From Candidatus Uhrbacteria bacterium (lineage in GTDB: Bacteria; Patescibacteriota; Patescibacteriia; UBA9934; GWF2-40-263): a DNA stretch of 34,551 nucleotides. Position 1 is the stretch's first letter; every line of letters begins with the position of its first letter. The position numbers and the translations under genes were made by a program. The notes beneath the pieces were generated by a model. The model did no database searches, was not told the origin of the DNA, and was given only the letters and a program-made list of their open reading frames with translations. This document shows, piece by piece, positions 22,009-34,358 of this stretch. The stretch lies in NCBI GenBank assembly GCA_016209325.1, contig JACQWJ010000011.1, positions 1-34,551 of the forward strand. The letters are read 5' to 3'.

Positions 22009-24963
22009 TCAATCCGCCTGGCGGAATTCACAGATATCGCGGAAGTCGCAATACCGGCAGTCGAATCCCGGTGTCGCCTCAAACCGGCTGGCCCGCATGC
22101 GGTCCGCCTGCTCGGCGATTTCGCCCTCGAACGCCTCCAATTCTTCGGGAGTTCCAAGAAAGCTCAGTTCCGAATGATCGTCGAGATAATGGTAGGTCAG
22201 CTTCTTCGGCACGAGCCCGAGGCTCCGCTCGGCCGCCAGTTGGTAGAGCCACAGCTGCTTCTTATCCTTCTTCTCGAGCTTGTCCTTGGGAGCGCCCGTC
22301 TTGTAGTCGACGATTTCCACACCTCCCTCGACGCAGTCGATCCGGTCAATGCGGCCCTTTAACATGACGCCACCCAGTTTCATGGCGAACGCCTGCTCCA
22401 CGGCAAACGGTATGGGAGGAGCCGTGCGAAGCAGTGCTGCGTAGGACTTCAGCGCTTCCCTGCCCTTCGCTTTGTAGGCGTCGCGCTCACGCTCGCTCGG
22501 GTACCACTCGTCGATCCAGGCTTTGTCGAACAGGTCGAGGAGCTCCTGCGCGTTCATGGGAACGGACGCGGCAGGGGAGGACGGTGGCGTTGTTTCAAAT
22601 AGCCCTCCCTGGCTTTTGCCCTCCCGGTCGATCCACAGCTGAAACCAGGCCTGGAGCGCGCCGTGCATACTCTTGCCGTACGACTGGGTCCAGGTGGAAA
22701 AAACAGGGATCTTCAGGATGTGCGCGAACTTGTACTGCAGGGGGCATGTCTCAAAGGCTCGGAGCTGGGTGAAACTAAACTGTCGCGGCAGTTCATACGG
22801 AACCGGCGTGTCAGACGTCGGAACGGACATCTCGGTTTCTTCCGCAAACGGATCCGCCACATCGAAAACAAGATCCGCCGCCGAAGCCTGAATGTCAAGC
22901 TCATGGAGGAAACGCGACAATTTTTTCTTACGCGCACCACCATAGTCGTCGGCGGAGGTGAAGAAGAGCGCGTCCTTGGCCCGCGTGATGGCCACGTAAA
23001 ACAACCGACGTTCCTCTTCCAGGTGGTCGTCGCCCCCGGGCAGGCGCTGCTGCGTGAGGTCCGCCGGAAGCGGAATGGGGTCCCGTCGCTCGAACGTCGG
23101 AAAGCGACGGTCGACGAGATTCACGACGAACACGAAACGGAATTCGAGACCCTTCGATCCGTGCACAGTCATGATGCGGACCGCGTCGGGACCGATCTCG
23201 CGGTCGGGCGACAGGGAACCCTCCTCCCCCGCGTCGCGCTCATGGCCGAGCTCGGTCAGAAAGGCGCGCAGGGTCGGATGGCGTCCGTGCGCGTCGAAGC
23301 GCTTGGCCCGCTCATGGAATTGGTGGAGGAAACGAAAGTCCTCGAGCTTCCGGGCTTCGGACAGGCCGTTCACGTGCGCGACGAGTTTGCTCTCACGCGC
23401 CACGCGGACCACCATCACAGAGGCGGTGCGCGTCTTCGCCTCCTGGATCAGGCGGTCGAGGAGGGACAAGAGGGTCTCGACGGCCTGCGCGGTCGGCTCG
23501 TCGACACCGGAGATCGCGCGGACCGAGCGGCAGACGTCGTACAGCGCCTTGCCCTGCCGGTGGGCCTCGTGGGTGAGCGTAACGAGCGCGTGCGGGGTCA
23601 GGCCGAAGAGGGGGTGGGCGAGCGCGCGGTAGAGGCTGGGGCTGTGGTACGGATCGTCAACGATCCGTACGAACGCGACCAGGTCCAAGATGACGCCTTT
23701 GGCATACAGACCGCGCAGGGCCATGAATTGATACGGAATACCGCAACGTTCAAAGACCTGGACGAAGTCGTCGGCGGAACCGTTGGCGCGCACGAGCACG
23801 CCGAAGTCGCCCCACGTCGCGTCTGGATGGGTGGCGCGAAGCTCAAAAATCTTGGAAGCGACCCCACGAACTTCCTCGACAAGCGACGAAAAATGCAGGT
23901 GCTCGACATGCCCCTCCTCCGCGCGTTCCGACACGAGCCGCTTGGACAGCGCGGAACCGTCTCCCGCCGGCCGTCCTTCGAGGCGATTAGGGTTGTTGGC
24001 CTGAATAAACGCGTAGGCGCGGTCCAGAATCTTCTGTCCCGAGCGGTAGTTCCTGACCAGCACCACCTTCTTTGCGTCAGGAAAATCTCCCTCGAACTCG
24101 AGGATATTCGCCAAGGACGCGCCGCGGAAGCGGTAGATCGCCTGGTCGTCGTCGCCGACCACCGTTACGTTGTTCCGCGGCGCCGCAAGCTTCTTGATGA
24201 GCTCGTACTGAGCCCCATTCGTGTCCTGAAACTCGTCGACGAGGAGATAGGGATACCGCTCGCGGAGCGCGTTCAGCACATGCGGCCGCTCGCGGATCAG
24301 CCGTAGCGTCTCCAAAATAAGATCGCCGAAGTCGAGAGCGTCTTCCTCGCGCAGGATCTGCTGGTAGACGTGGTATGCGCGTGCCAACTCTTCCAACCGT
24401 TTCGTCTCAAGATTCGCCTCGTCGTCCGCTTGGGCACTGTCGAGATTGGCCTTCTTCGATTCCGCGTACGCGAGGTACGCGTCGGGCGACACCATCTCGT
24501 CCTTGGCCCGCGAGAAGTGCTGAAGAAGCGCCTTGATGTACTTCGTGGGATTCCCCATCGGCCGGTAATAATCGAGTTCAAACCGGTCGAGCGACTGCCG
24601 CACGAGCAGCCACGCGTCGAGCTCGTCGACCAGGGTGAAGTCGCGCGGCAACCCAATCTCGACGCCGTAATCCCGGAGCACTTGTTCGCAAAAAGCATGG
24701 AACGTCGAAATCTGCGTGTTCACGTACCCGTACGGCAGGAGCAGATCAACACGCTCCTCCATCTCCGCTGCCGCCTTGTCGGTAAAGGTCAGCGCCAGAA
24801 TGTTTTCCGGCTTTATTCCCTGGTTCTGAATCAGCCAACCGATGCGCCGCGTAATCACGGTGGTCTTCCCCGTCCCCGCCCCGGCGATAATCATAAGCGG
24901 CCCCGTCGTATGCGTGACGGCCTGGATTTGTTCGGGATTCAGGTTGTCGAGCAGGGTTTCCAT
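22009..24963 (-). CDS. UvrD/PcrA-type superfamily 1 helicase fused to a C-terminal PD-(D/E)XK nuclease with Fe-S-type cysteines
   Basis: LNPEQIQAVTHTTGPLMIIAGAGTGKTTVITRRI (Walker A), LLVDEFQDTN (Walker B), GSKGLEFRFVFVVN; C-terminal GRIDRID...VEIVDYKTG and FETC...FDCRYCDFRDIC. Confidence 0.93.
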   Translation of the reverse strand: METLLDNLNPEQIQAVTHTTGPLMIIAGAGTGKTTVITRRIGWLIQNQGIKPENILALTFTDKAAAEMEERVDLLLPYGYVNTQISTFHAFCEQVLRDYGVEIGLPRDFTLVDELDAWLLVRQSLDRFELDYYRPMGNPTKYIKALLQHFSRAKDEMVSPDAYLAYAESKKANLDSAQADDEANLETKRLEELARAYHVYQQILREEDALDFGDLILETLRLIRERPHVLNALRERYPYLLVDEFQDTNGAQYELIKKLAAPRNNVTVVGDDDQAIYRFRGASLANILEFEGDFPDAKKVVLVRNYRSGQKILDRAYAFIQANNPNRLEGRPAGDGSALSKRLVSERAEEGHVEHLHFSSLVEEVRGVASKIFELRATHPDATWGDFGVLVRANGSADDFVQVFERCGIPYQFMALRGLYAKGVILDLVAFVRIVDDPYHSPSLYRALAHPLFGLTPHALVTLTHEAHRQGKALYDVCRSVRAISGVDEPTAQAVETLLSLLDRLIQEAKTRTASVMVVRVARESKLVAHVNGLSEARKLEDFRFLHQFHERAKRFDAHGRHPTLRAFLTELGHERDAGEEGSLSPDREIGPDAVRIMTVHGSKGLEFRFVFVVNLVDRRFPTFERRDPIPLPADLTQQRLPGGDDHLEEERRLFYVAITRAKDALFFTSADDYGGARKKKLSRFLHELDIQASAADLVFDVADPFAEETEMSVPTSDTPVPYELPRQFSFTQLRAFETCPLQYKFAHILKIPVFSTWTQSYGKSMHGALQAWFQLWIDREGKSQGGLFETTPPSSPAASVPMNAQELLDLFDKAWIDEWYPSERERDAYKAKGREALKSYAALLRTAPPIPFAVEQAFAMKLGGVMLKGRIDRIDCVEGGVEIVDYKTGAPKDKLEKKDKKQLWLYQLAAERSLGLVPKKLTYHYLDDHSELSFLGTPEELEAFEGEIAEQADRMRASRFEATPGFDCRYCDFRDICEFRQAD

Positions 24964-25118: not shown

Positions 25119-25589
25119 GTGATGATTTACCGAAACTGGAAAGCAATTACGGATTCGAGCCAGATCGATCCGTACATGACGAGGGCACTGGCTCTACTGA
25201 ATCTCGACAGTCCTCTGGGGCGCGAGTTCGTCAACCGATTTCCCGAGTGGTTCTCCACCACCCCTCTGGAGGACGCTGGCCCGATTCCGCTGTCCGTGAT
25301 TCGAACGACGGCCTGCCGGCTCGACGGGATGGAACGCGCCGCGGATTTTCCCTTCAGTTGCGGAGCAACGGTCGAGCTCGGCATCCCGACCCTTCAATTC
25401 GCTCTGAACAGTCATACGGAACGGGAGTGGGGTATCCCGCTCATTCCGCCAGAGTTGAAGGAGGTCAAGCAGCAGGGCACCACGATCAACCACGGTGTGG
25501 AAACGTTCGTGTGTCTTGAATACAACACGAATAGCGGAGTGGGAATCGTCTACTTCGCTCCCCTTATATACGTCGACCCGACATCCTGA
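25119..25589 (+). CDS. hypothetical protein (156 aa)
   Basis: Open frame with no long opposing CDS, followed by a terminator-like hairpin; no family recognised. Confidence 0.55.
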   Translation: MMIYRNWKAITDSSQIDPYMTRALALLNLDSPLGREFVNRFPEWFSTTPLEDAGPIPLSVIRTTACRLDGMERAADFPFSCGATVELGIPTLQFALNSHTEREWGIPLIPPELKEVKQQGTTINHGVETFVCLEYNTNSGVGIVYFAPLIYVDPTS

Positions 25590-25600
25590 TGCCGTTCCTC

Positions 25601-25640
25601 GCGCTCCCACCGGGTCCTCCGGCGGCGGGCGCTTTTCTTT
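25601..25640 (+). terminator. GC-rich hairpin followed by T-rich tract
   Basis: GCGCTCCCACCGG-GTCCT-CCGGCGGCGGGCGC-TTTTCTTTT, stem with one bulge and one mismatch. Confidence 0.55.
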
Positions 25641-25762
25641 TGAACAGGATGTCGAGTTTACGCATTACAAGAGAAATGTTACAGTCAAATTGTATGCCTC
25701 TTGCAAGCACAAAAACACGTCAGGCCTCGGTGGGCCAAAAGGAATTGCGACGCGTATTTAAG

Positions 25763-25912
25763 ATGAGTACGGCGTTGGTGGATTTGGTGGAAAGCATTCT
25801 GGAAGATACGAACAATTTCAAACAGGAATTCACACGAGGTCTGCGCACGTCCCTCAAGCAAGTCAAAAAGGGGAACGTCAAAAAAATCGAGAGTCTGTCC
25901 GATCTCAGGTGA
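25763..25912 (+). CDS. small antitoxin-like protein (RelB-type partner)
   Basis: MSTALVDLVESILEDTNNFKQEFTRGLRTSLKQVKKGNVKKIESLSDLR; C-terminal VKKGNVKKIESLSDL resembles type II antitoxins; immediately upstream of a RelE/ParE-like toxin. Confidence 0.6.
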   Translation: MSTALVDLVESILEDTNNFKQEFTRGLRTSLKQVKKGNVKKIESLSDLR

Positions 25913-25918
25913 GGCCGT

Positions 25919-26182
25919 ATGCGCGATCTGTTGATAACACCCCAATTTGAAAAGGACCTGAAAAAAATTTCGTTGAAGGTGCGTTCTCAGACAGATGAAA
26001 TCATCAAACGGCTTCGGAGGAATCCCATCGACTCATCGATTGCGCGAAAAAAGCTACATGGGTTCGAACCAGCATTGTGGCGCGTGCGCATCGGTCCTCA
26101 TCGACTGGTCTATTCATTTACCAAGACAATGCTCGTTCTACACCGCATCCGCCATCGTAAAGACATTTACCGAGATTTATAG
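25919..26182 (+). CDS. RelE/ParE-family toxin
   Basis: ITPQFEKDLKKIS...KKLHGFEPALWRVRIGPHRLVYSFTKTMLVLHRIRHRKDIYRDL, typical RelE/ParE fold pattern. Confidence 0.85.
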   Translation: MRDLLITPQFEKDLKKISLKVRSQTDEIIKRLRRNPIDSSIARKKLHGFEPALWRVRIGPHRLVYSFTKTMLVLHRIRHRKDIYRDL

Positions 26183-26226
26183 GGGATCCCGCGTTTTTGG
26201 TAAAAGGGAGAAAAGGAGTATTCTCT

Positions 26227-26757
26227 ATGCTGAACTACAGCGAAAAATTCAAAAATTTGGTCTTGTACATCCTTTCCCATGACTCATATCGGGAGGGTGG
26301 ACTGAAAAAGCTCAACAAGATGCTTTATTTTATCGACTTCTACTTTTACAAGGACCAAGAGCGCTTTATTTCCGATGTGGCGTACGCCAAGGCGGATATG
26401 GGACCCGTTGTGGATGGCTATCAGGAAATCTTTTCAAAGATGATGACAGACGGAGTGTTGAAAAAGCATGCGAACAGGTCGGGTATCCTTGAGGCTAACG
26501 TTCCGTACGACATTGCTTCGTTCGCCCCCGAAGAAATCGAACATATACGAAATGTCCTGGATGCGTATGGAAAGTTGTCTTCGACGATTCTTGAAACAAT
26601 CTCACACCAACAGCAGCCATGGCTTCTGACCAAACAGATGGGAGACATCATCGACCCGGACCTGGCGCTTCTCATCGATAACGGTGAATCGGAGGAAGTG
26701 GACATCCATGATCCCAAGCTTACTTCCGAACTGATCGCTCTCGCCGACTCGGTGTGA
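26227..26757 (+). CDS. Panacea/SocA-like (DUF4065) antitoxin domain protein
   Basis: LVLYILSHDSYREGGLKKLNKMLYFIDFYFYKDQERFISDVAYAKADMGPVVDGYQEIFSKMMTDGVL matches the DUF4065 pattern (K-L-x-K-LLYF...PYGPV-like). Confidence 0.7.
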   Translation: MLNYSEKFKNLVLYILSHDSYREGGLKKLNKMLYFIDFYFYKDQERFISDVAYAKADMGPVVDGYQEIFSKMMTDGVLKKHANRSGILEANVPYDIASFAPEEIEHIRNVLDAYGKLSSTILETISHQQQPWLLTKQMGDIIDPDLALLIDNGESEEVDIHDPKLTSELIALADSV

Positions 26758-27141: not shown

Positions 27142-28716
27142 CTAAAGGTCCGTCCCCGAGTAGCTCAGGTTCAGCGACTTGTTGCAGAGCGGGAAGTCCG
27201 GGACGATGTTACCGGGACCGAGCTCTCCGAAGAGGGCCCAGTTGCAGAAGGAGGGGTCGCGGGGGAAGCAGCGGTCGATCTTGCCGTCCTTGATGCGAAC
27301 GATCGTCAGGATCTCGCCGCGCCAGGACTCGACGGCGCCGAGCGCCATACCGTCCCGCGGCTGACAGTCCATTCGAAGGAAGCCATCGGCCGAGAGCATG
27401 GGTAGGAGCTTCTGAATCACCTGCTCCGTGGTCTGCAGTTCCTCGACGCGCATGCGGTAGCGCGCATAGACGTCTCCCGCCTTCTGGGTGACCACGCGCG
27501 GCAACAGCTCGGGCGCGAGATAGGCGGCGTACGGATGGTCGCGGCGCACGTCGCGGTCGAGGCCGGAGGCGCGGGCCGGGAGTCCCAGCGCGCCGTAGGC
27601 TTTGGCCGTCTCGAGCGGGAGCACGCCGGTGGTCTCCAGGCGCTCGTGGAGGCCGTCGGAGACTAGGAACACCTTGAGGAGGGCGTGCATTTCGGCGCAG
27701 ACCGAGGCGACGGTCTTTTCGACGTCCACGCGCTCTTCGGACAACAGGGTCCGAGCCACGCCGCCCGGCACGATGACGCCGCGCCAGAAGCGGTTACCGA
27801 GCAGGCGGGCGGACAGACGGACCAGGTCCTCCTTCACGCGGAATCCCTGGGCGGCCGCGACGGAATACCCCGTTCCCATGCCAGCCATGTTCGAGAGATC
27901 ATGGATGTGCATCGTCAAACGCTCGAGCTCGTGCAACAGTGTGCGAACAAGTCGGGCCTGCTGCGGCACTTCCGCGTCGCAGAGCTTCTCCACGGCCAGG
28001 CAGAAGGCGAGAGCGTGCGAGGGGCTCATGTCGTCCGACACGCGCTCGATGAACGGCATGGCCTCGTCGGGAGTCCTCCCTTCCAGGAGCTTCTCCACGC
28101 CCTTGTGGGTGAAGAACAGCTTGCCTTCGAGCGTGATGATGCGCTCGCCAGCCACGTTGAAGCGGAAGTGTCCCGGCTCGATGATCCCCGCGTGGATGGG
28201 GCCGACGGGAATCTCATAGACCCCCTCCCCCGCCACGTGGTGCATGGGGTACGGCACGTCGTCGTGCGAGAGCTTCGCGTCCCACGCGAAGTCCTTGCGG
28301 AGCGGATGCGTTCCGAGGGGGACGTTCTCGTGATGGACCAGGCGGCGGGGGTCGGGATGGCCCGCGGGCGTCACGCCGAACATGTCGGACAGGAGGCGTT
28401 CATACCAGTGAGCGGCCATGACGGAGCTCGTGACAGAAGGATAGGCAGGGTCGCTTTCCGGAACCTCGGTGGAAACGACGAGCCACTCGTGCGCTTCGTC
28501 AAGGGACAGAACGACGTGGATGCCGAATCCTTTCCTTTCTCTGCGATCATCGGTGCCGAACAGAAGGGAGAGTGGAAGGTTGTGCTCATGGACGAGCACA
28601 TGGACGAGCGGCGCGAACGCTTCCCGCTCCACGCGGATCCAGGTGGTGTCGACCGAGGCGAAGGTAGGCTGGCGTCCGACAGCTTCCAAAACGGCATGCA
28701 TGGTCTTCATATTCAT
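27142..28716 (-). CDS. HyfG/HycE-like (NuoC-NuoD-like) large subunit lacking [NiFe]-coordinating cysteines
   Basis: PVGPIHAGIIEPGHFRFNVAGERI, FFTHKGVEKLLEG, IERVSDDMSPSHALAF (L1 position), FPLCNKSLNLSYSGTDL* (L2 position). ATGA overlap with the upstream gene. Confidence 0.88.
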   Translation of the reverse strand: MNMKTMHAVLEAVGRQPTFASVDTTWIRVEREAFAPLVHVLVHEHNLPLSLLFGTDDRRERKGFGIHVVLSLDEAHEWLVVSTEVPESDPAYPSVTSSVMAAHWYERLLSDMFGVTPAGHPDPRRLVHHENVPLGTHPLRKDFAWDAKLSHDDVPYPMHHVAGEGVYEIPVGPIHAGIIEPGHFRFNVAGERIITLEGKLFFTHKGVEKLLEGRTPDEAMPFIERVSDDMSPSHALAFCLAVEKLCDAEVPQQARLVRTLLHELERLTMHIHDLSNMAGMGTGYSVAAAQGFRVKEDLVRLSARLLGNRFWRGVIVPGGVARTLLSEERVDVEKTVASVCAEMHALLKVFLVSDGLHERLETTGVLPLETAKAYGALGLPARASGLDRDVRRDHPYAAYLAPELLPRVVTQKAGDVYARYRMRVEELQTTEQVIQKLLPMLSADGFLRMDCQPRDGMALGAVESWRGEILTIVRIKDGKIDRCFPRDPSFCNWALFGELGPGNIVPDFPLCNKSLNLSYSGTDL

Positions 28717-30209
28717 AGAGCAACAGAGGAAATGGACTGAGCAACGCGCGTCGCGAATGCGAGGCCCGATGGAAGGAGGAAAAAGACGCCGGCGGCGCCG
28801 AGGAGTGCGAGCTCGCCCGCCATGACGGCATGAGTGAGGGTCCACGGCTCGCGGACCGACTCCACCGCGGGAGGCACTTCCGTGGCGGCGGGCGCGCCCT
28901 CAAACAGGAGGGCAAGGGTATGGCGCATCATTCCGACCGCGACCAGGCTCAAGCCAAGCAGGACGATGAGCGTCGAAACCAGGTGCGTGTTGATGCCGTA
29001 GCCGACCATGAGGTATTCGCTCGCAAACAGGGTCGAACCAGGCATGGCTAGGATACCGAGGATGGCGAGGAGAAACAGGACGGCCGTACGCGGAGCGTGC
29101 GTGAACACCGCCGGAAGATGGTCGAGCTTGGTGGTCTTCCAGCGGAGCAGAATCTCCCCCGCACCGAAGAAGAGGGCGGACTTGGCGAGCGTATGGCCCA
29201 CCATATGCATGACGGCTGGCACAAGCCCAAGGGGACCAAGACCGACGGAGAAGGCGAGGAGCCCCATGTGCTCGATGCTTGAGTAGGCCAGCATGCGCTT
29301 GTAGTTGCGCTGGATGAGCAGGATGAAGCCGGGCAGGAGCACTGAGAGGATGCCGAAGACGAGGAAGAACTTCTCCGTCCATTCCGTGCCGCCAAGCGCC
29401 AGGTCGGTGACGCCCTTGAAGCGGAGGATCGTCACGAACGCCACGTTCAGGAGGATGCCCGACAGCATGGCGGAAATCGGGGAGGGCGTCTTGCTGTGGG
29501 CGTCCGGCAACCAGGTGTGGAGGGGGACGAACCCAACCTTCGTGCCAATGCCGACAAACACGAAGACGAAGGCCCAGCGCATGATGTCTGGAGACAGGGA
29601 GGAGGCGTGCATTCGGAGTGTGTCGAGGTAGAGGAAGTCGGCGTGCTGCAGCCCTCCTACGGCCGCCGCGTGACCAACCATGAGGATGCCCACAAGGCCG
29701 AGCGCGATACCAGTCGAGCAAAGCAGGATGTACTTCCACGCGGCCTCAAGGGCACCATCCTTGGCGTAAAAAGCCACGAGACAGGTCGTTGCGAGCGTGG
29801 TAGCTTCGAGCCCGAACCAGATGACGCCGAGGTGGTTGGCGAGCGCGGTCACGAGCATCGCGAACGCGAACAGGTGCATCATGACGTAGTAGAGGCGGAC
29901 CTGACGGTCCGTGACGAGCCTCTCATGGCGCTCGTGGCCGAGGTAGCGGACGCTGACGACGGCGGTCGCGAGGTAAACGAGGACAATAAGCGACGCGACG
30001 AGGGCGGACATGGGGTCGACAAACCAAATTCCCAAGGACCGCATCTCGACGCGACCCAGGAGGACCGGGAAGGCGGTCGTCCAGACGAATCCGGCCGCCA
30101 CGGAGGCCGCGAGAACACCAAGACCGCGAACAGCCTTAACCGGCACGACGGGCAGCCAGGAGAAGAGGGGTGTCGCAAGCAGGGCGAGAAACGCAAGCGT
30201 CAAATGCAT
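28713..30209 (-). CDS. HyfF-like antiporter-type membrane subunit
   Basis: NuoL/M/N-like core: WFGLEATTLATTCLVAFYAKDGALEAAWKY, GIGTKVGFVPLHTWLPDAHSKTPSPISAMLSGILLNVAF, NYKRMLAYSSIEHMGLLAFSVG. Confidence 0.88.
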   Translation of the reverse strand: MHLTLAFLALLATPLFSWLPVVPVKAVRGLGVLAASVAAGFVWTTAFPVLLGRVEMRSLGIWFVDPMSALVASLIVLVYLATAVVSVRYLGHERHERLVTDRQVRLYYVMMHLFAFAMLVTALANHLGVIWFGLEATTLATTCLVAFYAKDGALEAAWKYILLCSTGIALGLVGILMVGHAAAVGGLQHADFLYLDTLRMHASSLSPDIMRWAFVFVFVGIGTKVGFVPLHTWLPDAHSKTPSPISAMLSGILLNVAFVTILRFKGVTDLALGGTEWTEKFFLVFGILSVLLPGFILLIQRNYKRMLAYSSIEHMGLLAFSVGLGPLGLVPAVMHMVGHTLAKSALFFGAGEILLRWKTTKLDHLPAVFTHAPRTAVLFLLAILGILAMPGSTLFASEYLMVGYGINTHLVSTLIVLLGLSLVAVGMMRHTLALLFEGAPAATEVPPAVESVREPWTLTHAVMAGELALLGAAGVFFLLPSGLAFATRVAQSISSVAL

Positions 30210-30212
30210 ACT

Positions 30213-30869
30213 TTAGTCAGTCAATTCGCGAAGGCTGGCCGTGTCGGACGTGCCGTAGAGCTCCTGTACCTTGTGGCTGAGGAGAGCCATCATGCTGACC
30301 GCGAGGAGCACGATCGAGAAGATGCCCACCTCGATCGCGACGGGGATCACGACGATCGTTGCGAGCGAAAAGGCGGCGATTCCGTTCTCGATGAACAGGA
30401 ACCCCACCATCTGCGAGAAAACATCCCGGCGAAGGACCATCATGAGGATACCCGCGAAGGCCACGGCGATCGAGAGGTAGAGGACATGCGCGGAGGCAGC
30501 CGAGGCAGCGAAGGGCAGGTGCTGGATGAGAAGGGCGGTCACGAGCAGGGCCGCGACGGTGACGAACAGACTGGGCGCTGCGCGCAGGGAGGACTGCAGG
30601 CGTTCGGAAGCACCCGAGCGGCGGATCGCGTTCGTAAGCAGCGCCGGGATGACCAATCCTTTGACGAACAGCGTCCCGAGCGCAAGGGGGTACAGATGTC
30701 CGGACGCATCCCTGACGGCAAAACTGAAGATCAGGAGGGCGAGCGCGATTGAGGAGCAGGCATACAGGCGAAGCAGGCTCTTGACGCGGAAGGTGGGCAT
30801 GGCGAGAACCGAGGCAAAGAGAAAGACAACGGCAAACAGGGGCTCGAGGACCGCAAGTGTGGCTATCAT
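30213..30869 (-). CDS. HyfE-like (NuoK-like) membrane subunit
   Basis: Polytopic; MVGFLFIENGIAAFSLATIV is typical; ATGA overlap with hyfC-like. Confidence 0.8.
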   Translation of the reverse strand: MIATLAVLEPLFAVVFLFASVLAMPTFRVKSLLRLYACSSIALALLIFSFAVRDASGHLYPLALGTLFVKGLVIPALLTNAIRRSGASERLQSSLRAAPSLFVTVAALLVTALLIQHLPFAASAASAHVLYLSIAVAFAGILMMVLRRDVFSQMVGFLFIENGIAAFSLATIVVIPVAIEVGIFSIVLLAVSMMALLSHKVQELYGTSDTASLRELTD

Positions 30870-31807
30870 AGGAAGAGGGTGAGCAGGAGTCCGGCCAACG
30901 CGATCACGAACGCGAGGGACAGGTATTCCTGCATGCGGTAAAAGCGCATCTTCACGATCGAGGTCTCGAGCAGGGCGAGGAGGAACGAGCCCAGGAGGAG
31001 CTTCAGGAAGGTTCCTACGAGAACCGCGGCCGTCGCTCCCGTCTGCCATGCGCTGGGATGGAAGAGAAATGACGTCGGAACTGTGAAGTTGGCAAGCAGG
31101 AGAAGGAACACTGTCAGACGCAGGGCGGAGGCGTATTCGACCATTGCAAGGTACGGGCCCGAGTACTCGAGCACCATGGCCTCGTGGACCATCGTGAGTT
31201 CGAGGTGTGTCGCCGGATTGTCGACCGGATAGCGCGCGTTTTCGGCAAGGGCGATCAGGACGAGCGCGATCAGGCTGAAAAGGAGCGCGGGTGTAACGAG
31301 GAGCGCCGCGCCTCCGGTCTGGACCATGCCGTCGATGGTGGCATGGCCGCTCGCGACCGCAAAGGCGGCAAAGACGGCAAACACGGCCGGCTCGACCAGG
31401 GATGCAATCGTCATCTCGCGGCTCGATCCCATGCCGCCAAAGGCACTCGCGCTATCGAGTCCTCCCAGTACGAGAAAAACCGAGCCTAACGCGAGGACGC
31501 CGGCTACCAGCATGAAATGACTGTAAGCGGACAGAGCGCTCCCCGTCGAGACGAGCGGTAGGATGAGGACGAGAAAGACGCCCGTGGCGCACACGACGAA
31601 CGGCACGAGGCGAAATACCCAGGAGGTACTCTCGGAAATTACCATCTCACGGCGGAGCATGGTGGCCAGGGCAACATACGGAAGCCAGGGGACGGCTCCC
31701 TGCCGACCTTGGAGGCGCGCCTTGAACCAACGTACCAGGCCGACCGTAAGCGGGGCGAGGCCGAGGACGAGAACTGCTTGGATCACAGTCAAAAGAAGAG
31801 GGCTCAT
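30866..31807 (-). CDS. HyfC-like (NuoH-like) membrane subunit
   Basis: ALAENARYPVDNPATHLELTMVHEAMVLEYSGPYLAMVEYA; ATGA overlap with hyfB-like. Confidence 0.9.
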   Translation of the reverse strand: MSPLLLTVIQAVLVLGLAPLTVGLVRWFKARLQGRQGAVPWLPYVALATMLRREMVISESTSWVFRLVPFVVCATGVFLVLILPLVSTGSALSAYSHFMLVAGVLALGSVFLVLGGLDSASAFGGMGSSREMTIASLVEPAVFAVFAAFAVASGHATIDGMVQTGGAALLVTPALLFSLIALVLIALAENARYPVDNPATHLELTMVHEAMVLEYSGPYLAMVEYASALRLTVFLLLLANFTVPTSFLFHPSAWQTGATAAVLVGTFLKLLLGSFLLALLETSIVKMRFYRMQEYLSLAFVIALAGLLLTLFL

Positions 31808-33819
31808 AGGGCGATAACCAAGGTCACAAGCAAAGCCAGGAAGATGAACGCAACGTACAACTGGACCGATCCACTCTGCACGCGTCGAACAATGGAAGCC
31901 GCACGCAGACATGTCCGCGCGATCGGAAGGTAGCCATAATCCATCCAGACAGAACGTAGATTCAAAAAAAGTTCACGGCGACAAATCCAGGGATTGGTGG
32001 CAACGACCGGGATCGCGACGACGGTGTTTTTGGTGCGCAGCAAGAAGCGGAAGAAAAAACGGATCGGCGCAGAAAACGCCGTCGCTGTGTACTCCATGCT
32101 GGCGTCAATCGGCTGCCCGCAGTTCCAGGTGTGATAGGAGCGCTCGCGCTTGGCGTCGGAAAGCAGACGACGCAGCAGGAATACGAGTCCGAGGCATGCC
32201 AACAGTCCGAGGAATACAGCGGCCGGAACAACCAAACTCGCATCCGGGCGGATACCGACGATTTCGATTGCTGGCAGACGGTTGGCCGCGCTCACCAGGT
32301 CTTTTCCGCCGACCAGCGACACGAGGGCCGGGGCGAATACGCCCATCCACGCGAGAAGTAGGGCCAAAAGAAGGATGGGAGCGTTCATGGAGGCAGGCGG
32401 CTCTACGGCCTTCTCGGCCGCTTCACTCCGGGGAGCGCCAAGGGTCGCGATGCCGAACAGCTTGACCATGGCGAAGATGGCCAGGGCGCTTGCGAGAACC
32501 ACCGCGAACAGCACGAGCACGAGGACACCGGTCACAGCTCCATCCGTGGGAGCCGCCAGAGATTGCACCAGACTCTGCAGGAACATCCATTCCCCGTAGA
32601 AGGGGCCAAAGGGCGGCAACGCGGCCGCGGACAACGCGAGAACTAGGAAGGCTCCAGAAAGAAGCGGCATACGCTTGGCCAGACCTCCCATGCGCTCAAG
32701 GCTCCGAGTGCCCGTCGCGTGCACGATGGCCCCGGCCGCCAGAAAGAGTCCCGACTTGAAAAGCGCGTGGCTGACGCAGTGAAAAACGGCGGCCAGGAGC
32801 GCGACCACTAGCAACCCCGGAAGGCGGTTGGCGAAAGCGTACGCACCGACACCAATCATAGTGAAGATGATGCCGATGTTCTCGATACTGCTGAACGCAA
32901 GCACACGCTTGATGTCGCGCTCGATCACCGCGTACAAGGCTCCGAAGATGGCGGACGCAAGACCCAGGCCAATGATGACCAGTCCGAAGGTGGCCGGCAG
33001 CGAGGGAATAAGGAAGAGCATCATGCGCAGGAATCCGTACACCGCGACCTTCAACATGACCCCCGACATGAGGGCCGAAATGTGGCTTGGAGCTTGCGGG
33101 TGAGCCTCCGGAAGCCAGGCGTGGAACGGCACGAGGCCCGCCTTCGATCCGAAGCCGAAGAGGAAAAGAAAGAAGGTCAGCGCGAGCGCGGGAGCCGGAA
33201 TGACCTGGGCTGAAAACGCCAGCGTTCGAAAATCAGCCAGAATCGTTCCTTGTGCCAGCACAAAGAAGCCAGTAAGGATGGCGGCCGCGCCGAGATGCGT
33301 CATCACGAAGTAGAACAGGGCGGCCTTTATCGAAGCTGGCTTGCGGTCGGCCATGACAAGGAAGAACGAGGTGATGGACATGAGCTCCCAGAACGCCATG
33401 AATCCGAGGACGTTCGTGGAAAGCAGTACCCCTTGCATGCCAAGGACGAACAGCGCAGTGGCCGCATTCAGGCTCGCAATGTGATAGCCCTCATGGCTCT
33501 GACGCACATACGCGATGGCATATACGGAGCACAGACAGGACACGAGCCCGACGATGGCGAAGAAGATCGCGGAAAACACGTCGAGCGCGAAGGTCATTCC
33601 GAAGAAAAGTCGGACCGAGGCGATCTCAAGCACCTCAAAGTCCTGGACGACGAAGGCGATGCTCGCCACGGCGCCGACGGCGCCCGAGAAAGCGAGGAGG
33701 ATATGGGCAAAATGATGGGCGCGGACACCGAGCAGTGCGACCAGGGCCGCAAAAACGGTGCCGGCGAGACTGGCAAGGATCGCGAACGAAAGGAAGGCGG
33801 GATCCATAGGCATCATCAT
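31804..33819 (-). CDS. HyfB-like (NuoL-like) antiporter-type membrane subunit
   Basis: FMAFWELMSITSFFLV, FGFGSKAGLVPFHAWLPEAHPQAPSHISALMSGVMLKVAVYGFLR, IERDIKRVLAFSSIENIGIIF; C-terminal extension. Confidence 0.92.
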   Translation of the reverse strand: MMMPMDPAFLSFAILASLAGTVFAALVALLGVRAHHFAHILLAFSGAVGAVASIAFVVQDFEVLEIASVRLFFGMTFALDVFSAIFFAIVGLVSCLCSVYAIAYVRQSHEGYHIASLNAATALFVLGMQGVLLSTNVLGFMAFWELMSITSFFLVMADRKPASIKAALFYFVMTHLGAAAILTGFFVLAQGTILADFRTLAFSAQVIPAPALALTFFLFLFGFGSKAGLVPFHAWLPEAHPQAPSHISALMSGVMLKVAVYGFLRMMLFLIPSLPATFGLVIIGLGLASAIFGALYAVIERDIKRVLAFSSIENIGIIFTMIGVGAYAFANRLPGLLVVALLAAVFHCVSHALFKSGLFLAAGAIVHATGTRSLERMGGLAKRMPLLSGAFLVLALSAAALPPFGPFYGEWMFLQSLVQSLAAPTDGAVTGVLVLVLFAVVLASALAIFAMVKLFGIATLGAPRSEAAEKAVEPPASMNAPILLLALLLAWMGVFAPALVSLVGGKDLVSAANRLPAIEIVGIRPDASLVVPAAVFLGLLACLGLVFLLRRLLSDAKRERSYHTWNCGQPIDASMEYTATAFSAPIRFFFRFLLRTKNTVVAIPVVATNPWICRRELFLNLRSVWMDYGYLPIARTCLRAASIVRRVQSGSVQLYVAFIFLALLVTLVIAL

Positions 33820-33821
33820 AT

Positions 33822-34358
33822 TTAGACACGGGACTGGCTCAGCGCGTGGAGCACCCCCTGAAGGATAGCGGTCGGCGTCGGGGGGTCTCCTGGAATGCGC
33901 ACGTGGACGGGAATAACGGATTCGACAGGTCCAACGACGGCGTACGAGTCCTTCCAGATGCCGCCTGTGCACGCGCCGTCGCCCACGGCCACCACCATGC
34001 AGGGCTGGGGCGCGGCTTCGTAGGTGGTCTTCACCGCGCGCTCAAGGTTGCGCGTCACGGGACCCGACACGAACAGCATGTCGGCATGCCGCGGCGAGGC
34101 CACGAAACTGAGCCCGAACCGGTCGATGTCGTAATAGGCATTGTTGAGCGCCGTCAGCTCAATCTCTTCCCCGTTCGCAGATCCTCCGTCTACCGCCCGA
34201 ATCCGCAGCGAGCGCCCTCCATACAGACGACGCACAACAGTCTTCAGTTCCTCCCCAACCGCCTCAAGCGAGGCGTCCTTCGGATTGACAAACCGTTCCT
34301 TCGCTTCGGTCACCCGAGGCCCCAGAAACAGCAATCGCCACAGTTCTGCAAGATACAT
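33822..34358 (-). CDS. HyfI/HycG-like (NuoB-like) small subunit lacking the proximal [4Fe-4S] cysteines
   Basis: VDGGSANGEEIEL, ASPRHADMLFVSGPVTRNLERAVKTTYEAAPQPCMVVAVGDGACTGGIW, VIPVHVRIPGDPPTPTAILQGVLHAL. Confidence 0.88.
   Translation of the reverse strand: MYLAELWRLLFLGPRVTEAKERFVNPKDASLEAVGEELKTVVRRLYGGRSLRIRAVDGGSANGEEIELTALNNAYYDIDRFGLSFVASPRHADMLFVSGPVTRNLERAVKTTYEAAPQPCMVVAVGDGACTGGIWKDSYAVVGPVESVIPVHVRIPGDPPTPTAILQGVLHALSQSRV

Follow-up and report, generated by a model that had tools for sequence, protein, structure and literature searches.

Some bacteria of the Candidate Phyla Radiation (CPR), which have tiny genomes, carry a relative of respiratory complex I that, judging from its genes, probably moves ions without redox chemistry. 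We describe it from a 34,551-nucleotide stretch of DNA, hereafter the window, which is contig JACQWJ010000011.1 (C1) of a Candidatus Uhrbacteria genome (assembly GCA_016209325.1; 766 kb, 37 contigs, 89% complete). Six intact open reading frames (ORFs) at 27142-34358, on the minus strand, appear to specify a member of the complex I / group 4 hydrogenase superfamily in which both arms are complete and no metal site able to move electrons is left. We propose that this redox-silent energy-converting hydrogenase-related (Ehr) complex works as a gradient-coupled secondary ion translocator, a reading that we consider about equally likely to be right or wrong.

The operon has the order S-B-C-E-F-L, with subunit names resting on Pfam and NCBIfam profile matches for each ORF. 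The small subunit S (33822..34358, 178 aa) is NuoB/HycG/MbhJ-like (Oxidored_q6 PF01058, E 9e-25), and B (31804..33819, 671 aa) is a HyfB-like antiporter-type subunit (PRK06521, hydrogenase 4 subunit B, E 6e-156). They are followed by the HyfC/NuoH-like C (30866..31807, 313 aa; NADHdh PF00146, E 6e-24), the HyfE-like membrane subunit E (30213..30869, 218 aa; PRK11492, hydrogenase 4 membrane subunit, E 2e-20), the HyfF-like antiporter-type subunit F (28713..30209, 498 aa; PRK06458, E 3e-97), and the large subunit L (27142..28716, 524 aa), a HycE-like fusion of NuoC and NuoD (PF00329 and PF00346). A reading of this DNA made earlier without database searches, the sequence-only reading, had described a six-gene Hyf/NuoB/NuoCD-type operon, and all the genes are indeed present, intact and matched by the families it named. 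Its report of ATGA overlaps at the last four of the five junctions was right as to the overlaps and wrong as to their number: the junction sequences show them at three (B/C, C/E and F/L), with gaps of 2 nt at S/B and 3 nt at E/F. The membrane-subunit motifs that it quoted are all present, and the motif NARYPVDNPATHLELTMVHE of HyfC is intact.

To locate the metal sites, we set the ligand columns by alignment to HycG and HycE of formate hydrogenlyase (FHL), to MbhJ and MbhL, and to CPR hydrogenases, with the window S aligned to MbhJ (6cfw_J) and HycG (7z0s_G). All four positions that hold the ligands of the N2 [4Fe4S] cluster are replaced in S (A61, E64, G128 and D158), as are all four NiFe ligand positions in L (S227, M230, S518 and G521), the latter inside a conserved polar region (ER.SGD / NKS.NLSYSG.D). 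The canonical ligands are thus gone from both hydrophilic subunits, as had been claimed from the sequence.

Among 381 sampled genomes of the phylum, 16 match L: the window itself, ten with a related operon, two fragments, and three loci (L030-L032) that are true group 4-type hydrogenases of CPR genomes with all ligands. The related operons share the order S-B-C-E-F-L, except in L028, where S stands last. A collection-wide genome scan found at least 579 relatives across many phyla, and most of the best 80, which we kept, carry the same gene set as the window operon. The eight ligand columns split the loci cleanly into three classes. Class 1 (19 loci) has both the NiFe and the N2 cysteines and consists of hydrogenases. 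Class 2 (38 loci) lacks the NiFe cysteines and keeps those of N2; these are ordinary Ehr complexes, hosted by Nitrospira, Methylobacter, Acidobacteria, Rokubacteria, Actinomycetes, Methanomassiliicoccus, Thaumarchaeota and others. All four N2 cysteines occur in 37 of the 38, and the remaining locus, L086, has one shifted; in this rokubacterial small subunit GSPNCCEIE replaces GSCNGCEIE, a shifted pair that resembles the CC of NuoB, with the remaining N2 cysteines kept. Class 3 lacks both cysteine sets; its 24 entries, three of which are duplicate records (one genome each), comprise every CPR Ehr with a readable S, the window included, together with one locus from a metagenome-assembled genome (MAG) labelled Thermoleophilia (L073), L028, and the pair L085 and L112. 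The pattern recurs in seven further members of the window's family. At the fourth N2 position, roughly half of the class-3 rows retain Cys, and most of the remainder have Glu.

The double loss marks the CPR clade and a few outliers. The sequence-only reading had presented it as a feature of an Ehr-like complex, which holds for the Ehr affiliation and the missing NiFe site; loss in both subunits is no general Ehr trait, since the window S lacks N2-type cluster ligands, unlike all 38 scored non-CPR Ehr loci, N2 retention outside the CPR being an empirical trait measured in this comparison and not a criterion taken from the literature. Displaced cysteines that still form a cluster were considered and ruled out, because no invariant or nearly invariant cysteine is found among the class-3 small subunits; here the earlier reading stands.

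In a tree of large subunits built with the ligand columns omitted, the CPR class-3 sequences, including the window, form one branch (support 92/92) nested among NiFe-less Ehr, in agreement with the affiliation suggested from the sequence. An order in which NiFe was lost first and N2 second fits this tree best. The L085 and L112 pair (100/100; Altiarchaeales/Dehalococcoidales) branches apart from the CPR clade, which suggests two independent losses of N2, one in the CPR and one in this pair, although a single loss is not rejected (approximately unbiased test, p = 0.091). L028 is a long branch of uncertain position. The Ehr of L073, redox-silent and of CPR type, falls among the CPR sequences; misbinning of the contig or recent transfer is the probable cause. 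L112, from an Altiarchaeales MAG, has two tandem sets of membrane subunits in one locus (B C E F L S B C E F), and in its S the N2 ligands are replaced by DTDN, as in L085.

The redox centres seem to have been removed with precision. Of the positions that class 2 conserves, CPR class 3 has lost only three cluster cysteines and P74 in S, and none in L; as far as the alignments show, the loss was targeted and almost nothing else went with it. The Glu, Lys and His residues of the ion path in the membrane subunits are retained, mostly in every sequence, in keeping with the intact ion-translocation apparatus that the sequence-only reading had described: in HyfB, E145, K226, H240, K257, K304, E313, H351, K355 and E410 are invariant in 23 of 23 class-3 sequences, and the same invariance within class 3 holds for E139, E189, R192, D196, H201, E203 and E281 of HyfC and for E135, K159, K224, E313, H339 and K343 of HyfF. 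One charged change marks class 3: residue 240 of HyfF, which lies near the conserved PDAHS motif, is Lys, in place of the Glu or Gln of hydrogenases and ordinary Ehr. The S and L models from AlphaFold are both confident and take the expected folds [S: predicted local distance difference test (pLDDT) 93.3, template modelling (TM) score 0.87, target-normalised, to MbhJ, root mean square deviation (rmsd) 2.1; L: pLDDT 91.1, TM 0.93 to HycE 7z0s_E, rmsd 2.4 over 531 columns].

Selection on the operon is purifying. The ratio of nonsynonymous to synonymous change (dN/dS) is 0.03-0.14 for all six genes in the pairs with estimable dS, values that are approximate at dS > 1, and the lowest ratio, near 0.035 for the closest pairs, belongs to S, which is also the subunit with the highest identity. 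No internal stops occur in the L or S ORFs examined across many CPR lineages. That the operon is a decaying hydrogenase remnant, for which its patchy distribution might speak, is scarcely credible with dN/dS well below 1 in six genes and intact ORFs; we rule decay out on these grounds, and the absence of relaxed selection sustains the earlier view of an operon that is being maintained.

Genomic position also bears on function. An F1Fo ATP synthase operon adjoins Ehr in 8 of 20 class-3 loci and in none of 57 loci of classes 1 and 2 (Fisher 6e-6, with relatedness not corrected). In six of the eight linked loci the atp genes share the strand of Ehr and lie 0.3-3 kb upstream of S, and in the other two they are convergent and within 5 kb. 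Within the window's family, all six further Ehr loci with enough flank, and genome G308, have atp directly upstream on the same strand. The ATP synthase operon of the window genome lies outside the window, on contig C22, and an exact 111-bp match between the right end of the window and the start of C22 (34441..34551 to C22:102-212, unstranded) makes it likely that C22 joins C1, leaving an additional 101-bp end of C22 unexplained. The overlap contains the 3' end of a zeta-toxin-like gene (C22:1-571 region, L131; PF06414, E 1e-12) and a terminator-like hairpin, and the join implies the order atp, zeta-toxin-like gene, hairpin and ehrS on one strand. The zeta-toxin-like gene occupies the slot between atp and ehrS in which relatives carry a carbonic-anhydrase-like gene. 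The neighbouring ATP synthase looks H+-coupled, because its c subunits read FAEAIAIY or similar and, judged by eye, are without the Na+-type Glu-Ser/Thr motif.

The gene content of these genomes offers little from which electrons could be supplied. The whole window genome (89% complete) yielded no second NuoD or hydrogenase large subunit, and no HypD, NuoF or Fer4_7 ferredoxin. A second hydrogenase module elsewhere, which could have fed this complex, was thus not found, and the absence of Hyp maturation noted in the window extends, for HypD, to the genome. More widely, HypD is absent from 10 of 11 class-3 genomes and present in all three CPR genomes with true group 4 hydrogenases, while NuoF is absent from 12 of 12 class-3 genomes searched. 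Fer4_7 is above cutoff in none of 10 class-3 genomes, with two more (G088 and G178) that do have it, in 3 of 3 class-1 CPR genomes, and in 2 of 9 Ehr-negative CPR controls. Ferredoxins are few in the controls also, and their scarcity is therefore general to these CPR and no Ehr-specific mark. In every class-3 genome that has a complete operon, the only Proton_antipo_M proteins are the two that the operon encodes (HyfB- and HyfF-type), which leaves no Mrp or Nuo backup; accordingly, no separate MrpA or MrpD occurs among these proteins in the window genome, MrpE-G not having been searched for.

We suggest that the NiFe site was lost first and the last [4Fe4S] cluster afterwards, in the CPR lineage, and that what remained would act in secondary ion translocation, with H+-coupled cation antiport or a gated proton path as the likeliest forms. 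The neighbouring F1Fo ATP synthase, of H+ type, would make or use the proton gradient on which the two antiporter-type subunits and the E-channel of HyfC cycle. Above the HyfC cavity, S and L may have been kept as a structural, ligand-sensing gate, a hydrophilic cap whose likely ligand site is the conserved polar pocket that once held NiFe. The sequence-only reading had imagined an ion-translocating machine driven by something other than H2 chemistry, and both the lack of H2 chemistry and the intact ion path agree with it, whether it is an antiporter, a channel, a regulator or a non-redox pump. A more elaborate scheme, in which non-redox chemistry or ligand binding in the pocket of an electron-free two-arm machine is coupled through the E-channel to ions in partnership with the F1Fo ATP synthase, strikes us as somewhat unlikely.

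Several observations weigh against a translocator tied to the ATP synthase. On the tree the linkage changes at least four times, all within the CPR clade, and it is absent in the CPR loci L023, L024, L026, L044, L046 and L072. The operon occurs in only 10 of 43 genomes of the window's family and is therefore dispensable there. No Mrp-type sodium-path subunits are recognised in the operon, which makes the transported ion a guess. Moreover, loop 174-181 of L is largely invariant yet of low confidence when modelled alone, and it could bind a partner, which would fit the poor solo prediction.

The close association with atp genes also invites the view that the complex is mainly a regulator of the ATP synthase, or an assembly or docking partner, for instance a gated proton leak or brake, and no energy-converting transporter. 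Colinear atp and ehr genes 0.3-3 kb apart in many loci, and the standing of S as the most conserved subunit, would suit such a role, but docking would not call for two full antiporter-type subunits that retain every ion-path residue, and Ehr is missing from most relatives in the family, those checked having a normal ATP synthase operon; we think this unlikely. The invariance of H204, E208 and R466 in the old active-site region of L, together with its intact predicted fold, could instead be taken to mean that the complex is still a redox enzyme, in which a diffusible carrier or quinone feeds electrons straight into the L pocket and bypasses N2. Against this stand the missing cluster ligands and NADH module and the scarcity of ferredoxins in the genomes; in addition, the ER.SGD segment shows no Tyr at the position that we presume, from the 49-kDa subunit, for the one in the quinone-reduction site of complex I. 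We hold this to be very unlikely.

Non-redox chemistry in the same pocket is a further candidate: (de)protonation of a ligand in the former NiFe/quinone pocket, as in CO2/bicarbonate interconversion, would drive the E-channel in a DAB-like manner. The polar pocket of L is strongly conserved, the DAB2 vectorial carbonic anhydrase provides a precedent for carbonic anhydrase chemistry coupled to a NuoL-like subunit (PMC13144422), and in eight loci a carbonic-anhydrase-like gene lies between atpC and ehrS. Two of these genes, in L152 (10692-11837, minus strand) and L036 (2958-4154, plus strand), are homologous to CsoSCA, the carboxysome shell carbonic anhydrase (for L152, TIGR02701, E 1.5e-7, and PDB 8thm, E 4e-5). 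The other six loci have an unnamed family of 211-262 aa with invariant CxDxDQ and HxPCG motifs (L150, L151, L153, L154, L155 and L019; it is found also in L173-L187), which follows the ATP synthase operon directly in many genomes of the window's family. For this family no Pfam or PDB homologue was found, nor any detectable homology to carbonic anhydrase; a divergent enzyme of zinc or carbonic anhydrase type is one possibility. Ehr-negative relatives carry the same carbonic-anhydrase-like genes after their ATP synthase operons; hence these genes belong to the atp locus and not to Ehr, and the idea of an Ehr-specific carbonic anhydrase partner was downgraded. Furthermore, neither family was found in the window genome, where DabA was not searched for, and DabB2 has lost the ion-pair motifs (PMC13144422) that the Ehr subunits here keep. 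On balance a chemistry of this kind seems quite unlikely. CsoSCA homologues adjoin the ATP synthase operon in the CPR loci L179, L180 and L181 as well.

Ehr complexes without NiFe ligands were already known from several phyla, with no assigned function. The window shares the B-C-E-F-L-S set with Ehr (ehrABCDLS of Geobacter, Nitrospira and Methanomassiliicoccales; hyc/Rv0082-0087 of mycobacteria), as well as the replacement of NiFe ligands by ER.SGD and NLSYSG.D motifs and the independence from Hyp. The CPR clade differs in having none of the N2 cysteine set, which the non-CPR Ehr keep (38 of 38 scored, one shifted), in the place of S at the operon front, and in an operon that often adjoins the ATP synthase. 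Jaffe et al. reported in 2020 that CPR Ehr large subunits are monophyletic and without metal-binding cysteines (PMC7304191), and the window belongs to the same group; the main text of that paper is silent on loss of the small-subunit cluster, selection on the operon and linkage to the ATP synthase. We found no literature report of an N2-less Ehr or of an Ehr-ATP synthase link, the supplement of PMC7304191 and the original Ehr papers lying outside the search, nor did we find the split within Ehr, with N2 kept outside the CPR and lost inside it, reported earlier.

Group 4 [NiFe] hydrogenases have two cysteine pairs in L and Hyp maturation genes, neither of which accompanies the window operon. 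E. coli formate hydrogenlyase and hydrogenase 4 (7z0s) share homologues of HyfB, HyfC, HyfE and HyfF, and L matches HycE (TM 0.93), but the window operon is without NiFe, Fe-S, the HyfA/HyfH ferredoxin subunits, HyfD and formate dehydrogenase. Respiratory complex I has an NADH module and the N2 cluster, whereas the window genome has no NuoF and its S no N2 ligands. Mrp cation/proton antiporters are likewise redox-free and have MrpA/D-type subunits with a conserved Glu/Lys ion path, but they are without NuoB, NuoCD and NuoH homologues and possess sodium-path subunits not recognised in the window operon (PMC7419157). In DAB2, too, a complex I-type membrane subunit is run by the proton-motive force without redox chemistry; unlike the window operon, it combines one membrane subunit with DabA, has lost the ion-pair motifs and has no NuoB/NuoCD arm (PMC13144422).

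How electron transfer is coupled to ion pumping in complex I is a long-standing question, and a complex from which every redox centre has been removed while both arms and the ion path are kept provides a natural experiment on the roles of the hydrophilic arm other than moving electrons. Complex I is proposed to have originated when a hydrogenase module joined an Mrp-like transporter (PMC7419157); if the mechanism suggested here is true, evolution has reversed that step. The proximity to the ATP synthase genes hints at a simplified bioenergetic unit in bacteria that lack complex I; it also provides a testable role for a family of unassigned function.

Just past the 3' end of the operon sit toxin/antitoxin-like genes (25589-26757): a ParE-type toxin gene at 25919-26182 on the plus strand (PF05016, E 8e-10) with a small upstream ORF, the pair spanning 25589-26182, and after it, on the same strand, a SocA/Panacea-domain antitoxin-like gene at 26197-26757 (PF13274, E 5e-15). 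Farther along, on the minus strand, a UvrD-type helicase (22009-24963) has a nuclease-like C-terminal part that ends in a CxxC...C pattern; it is possibly an Fe-S nuclease, in which case the genome may still use Fe-S proteins.

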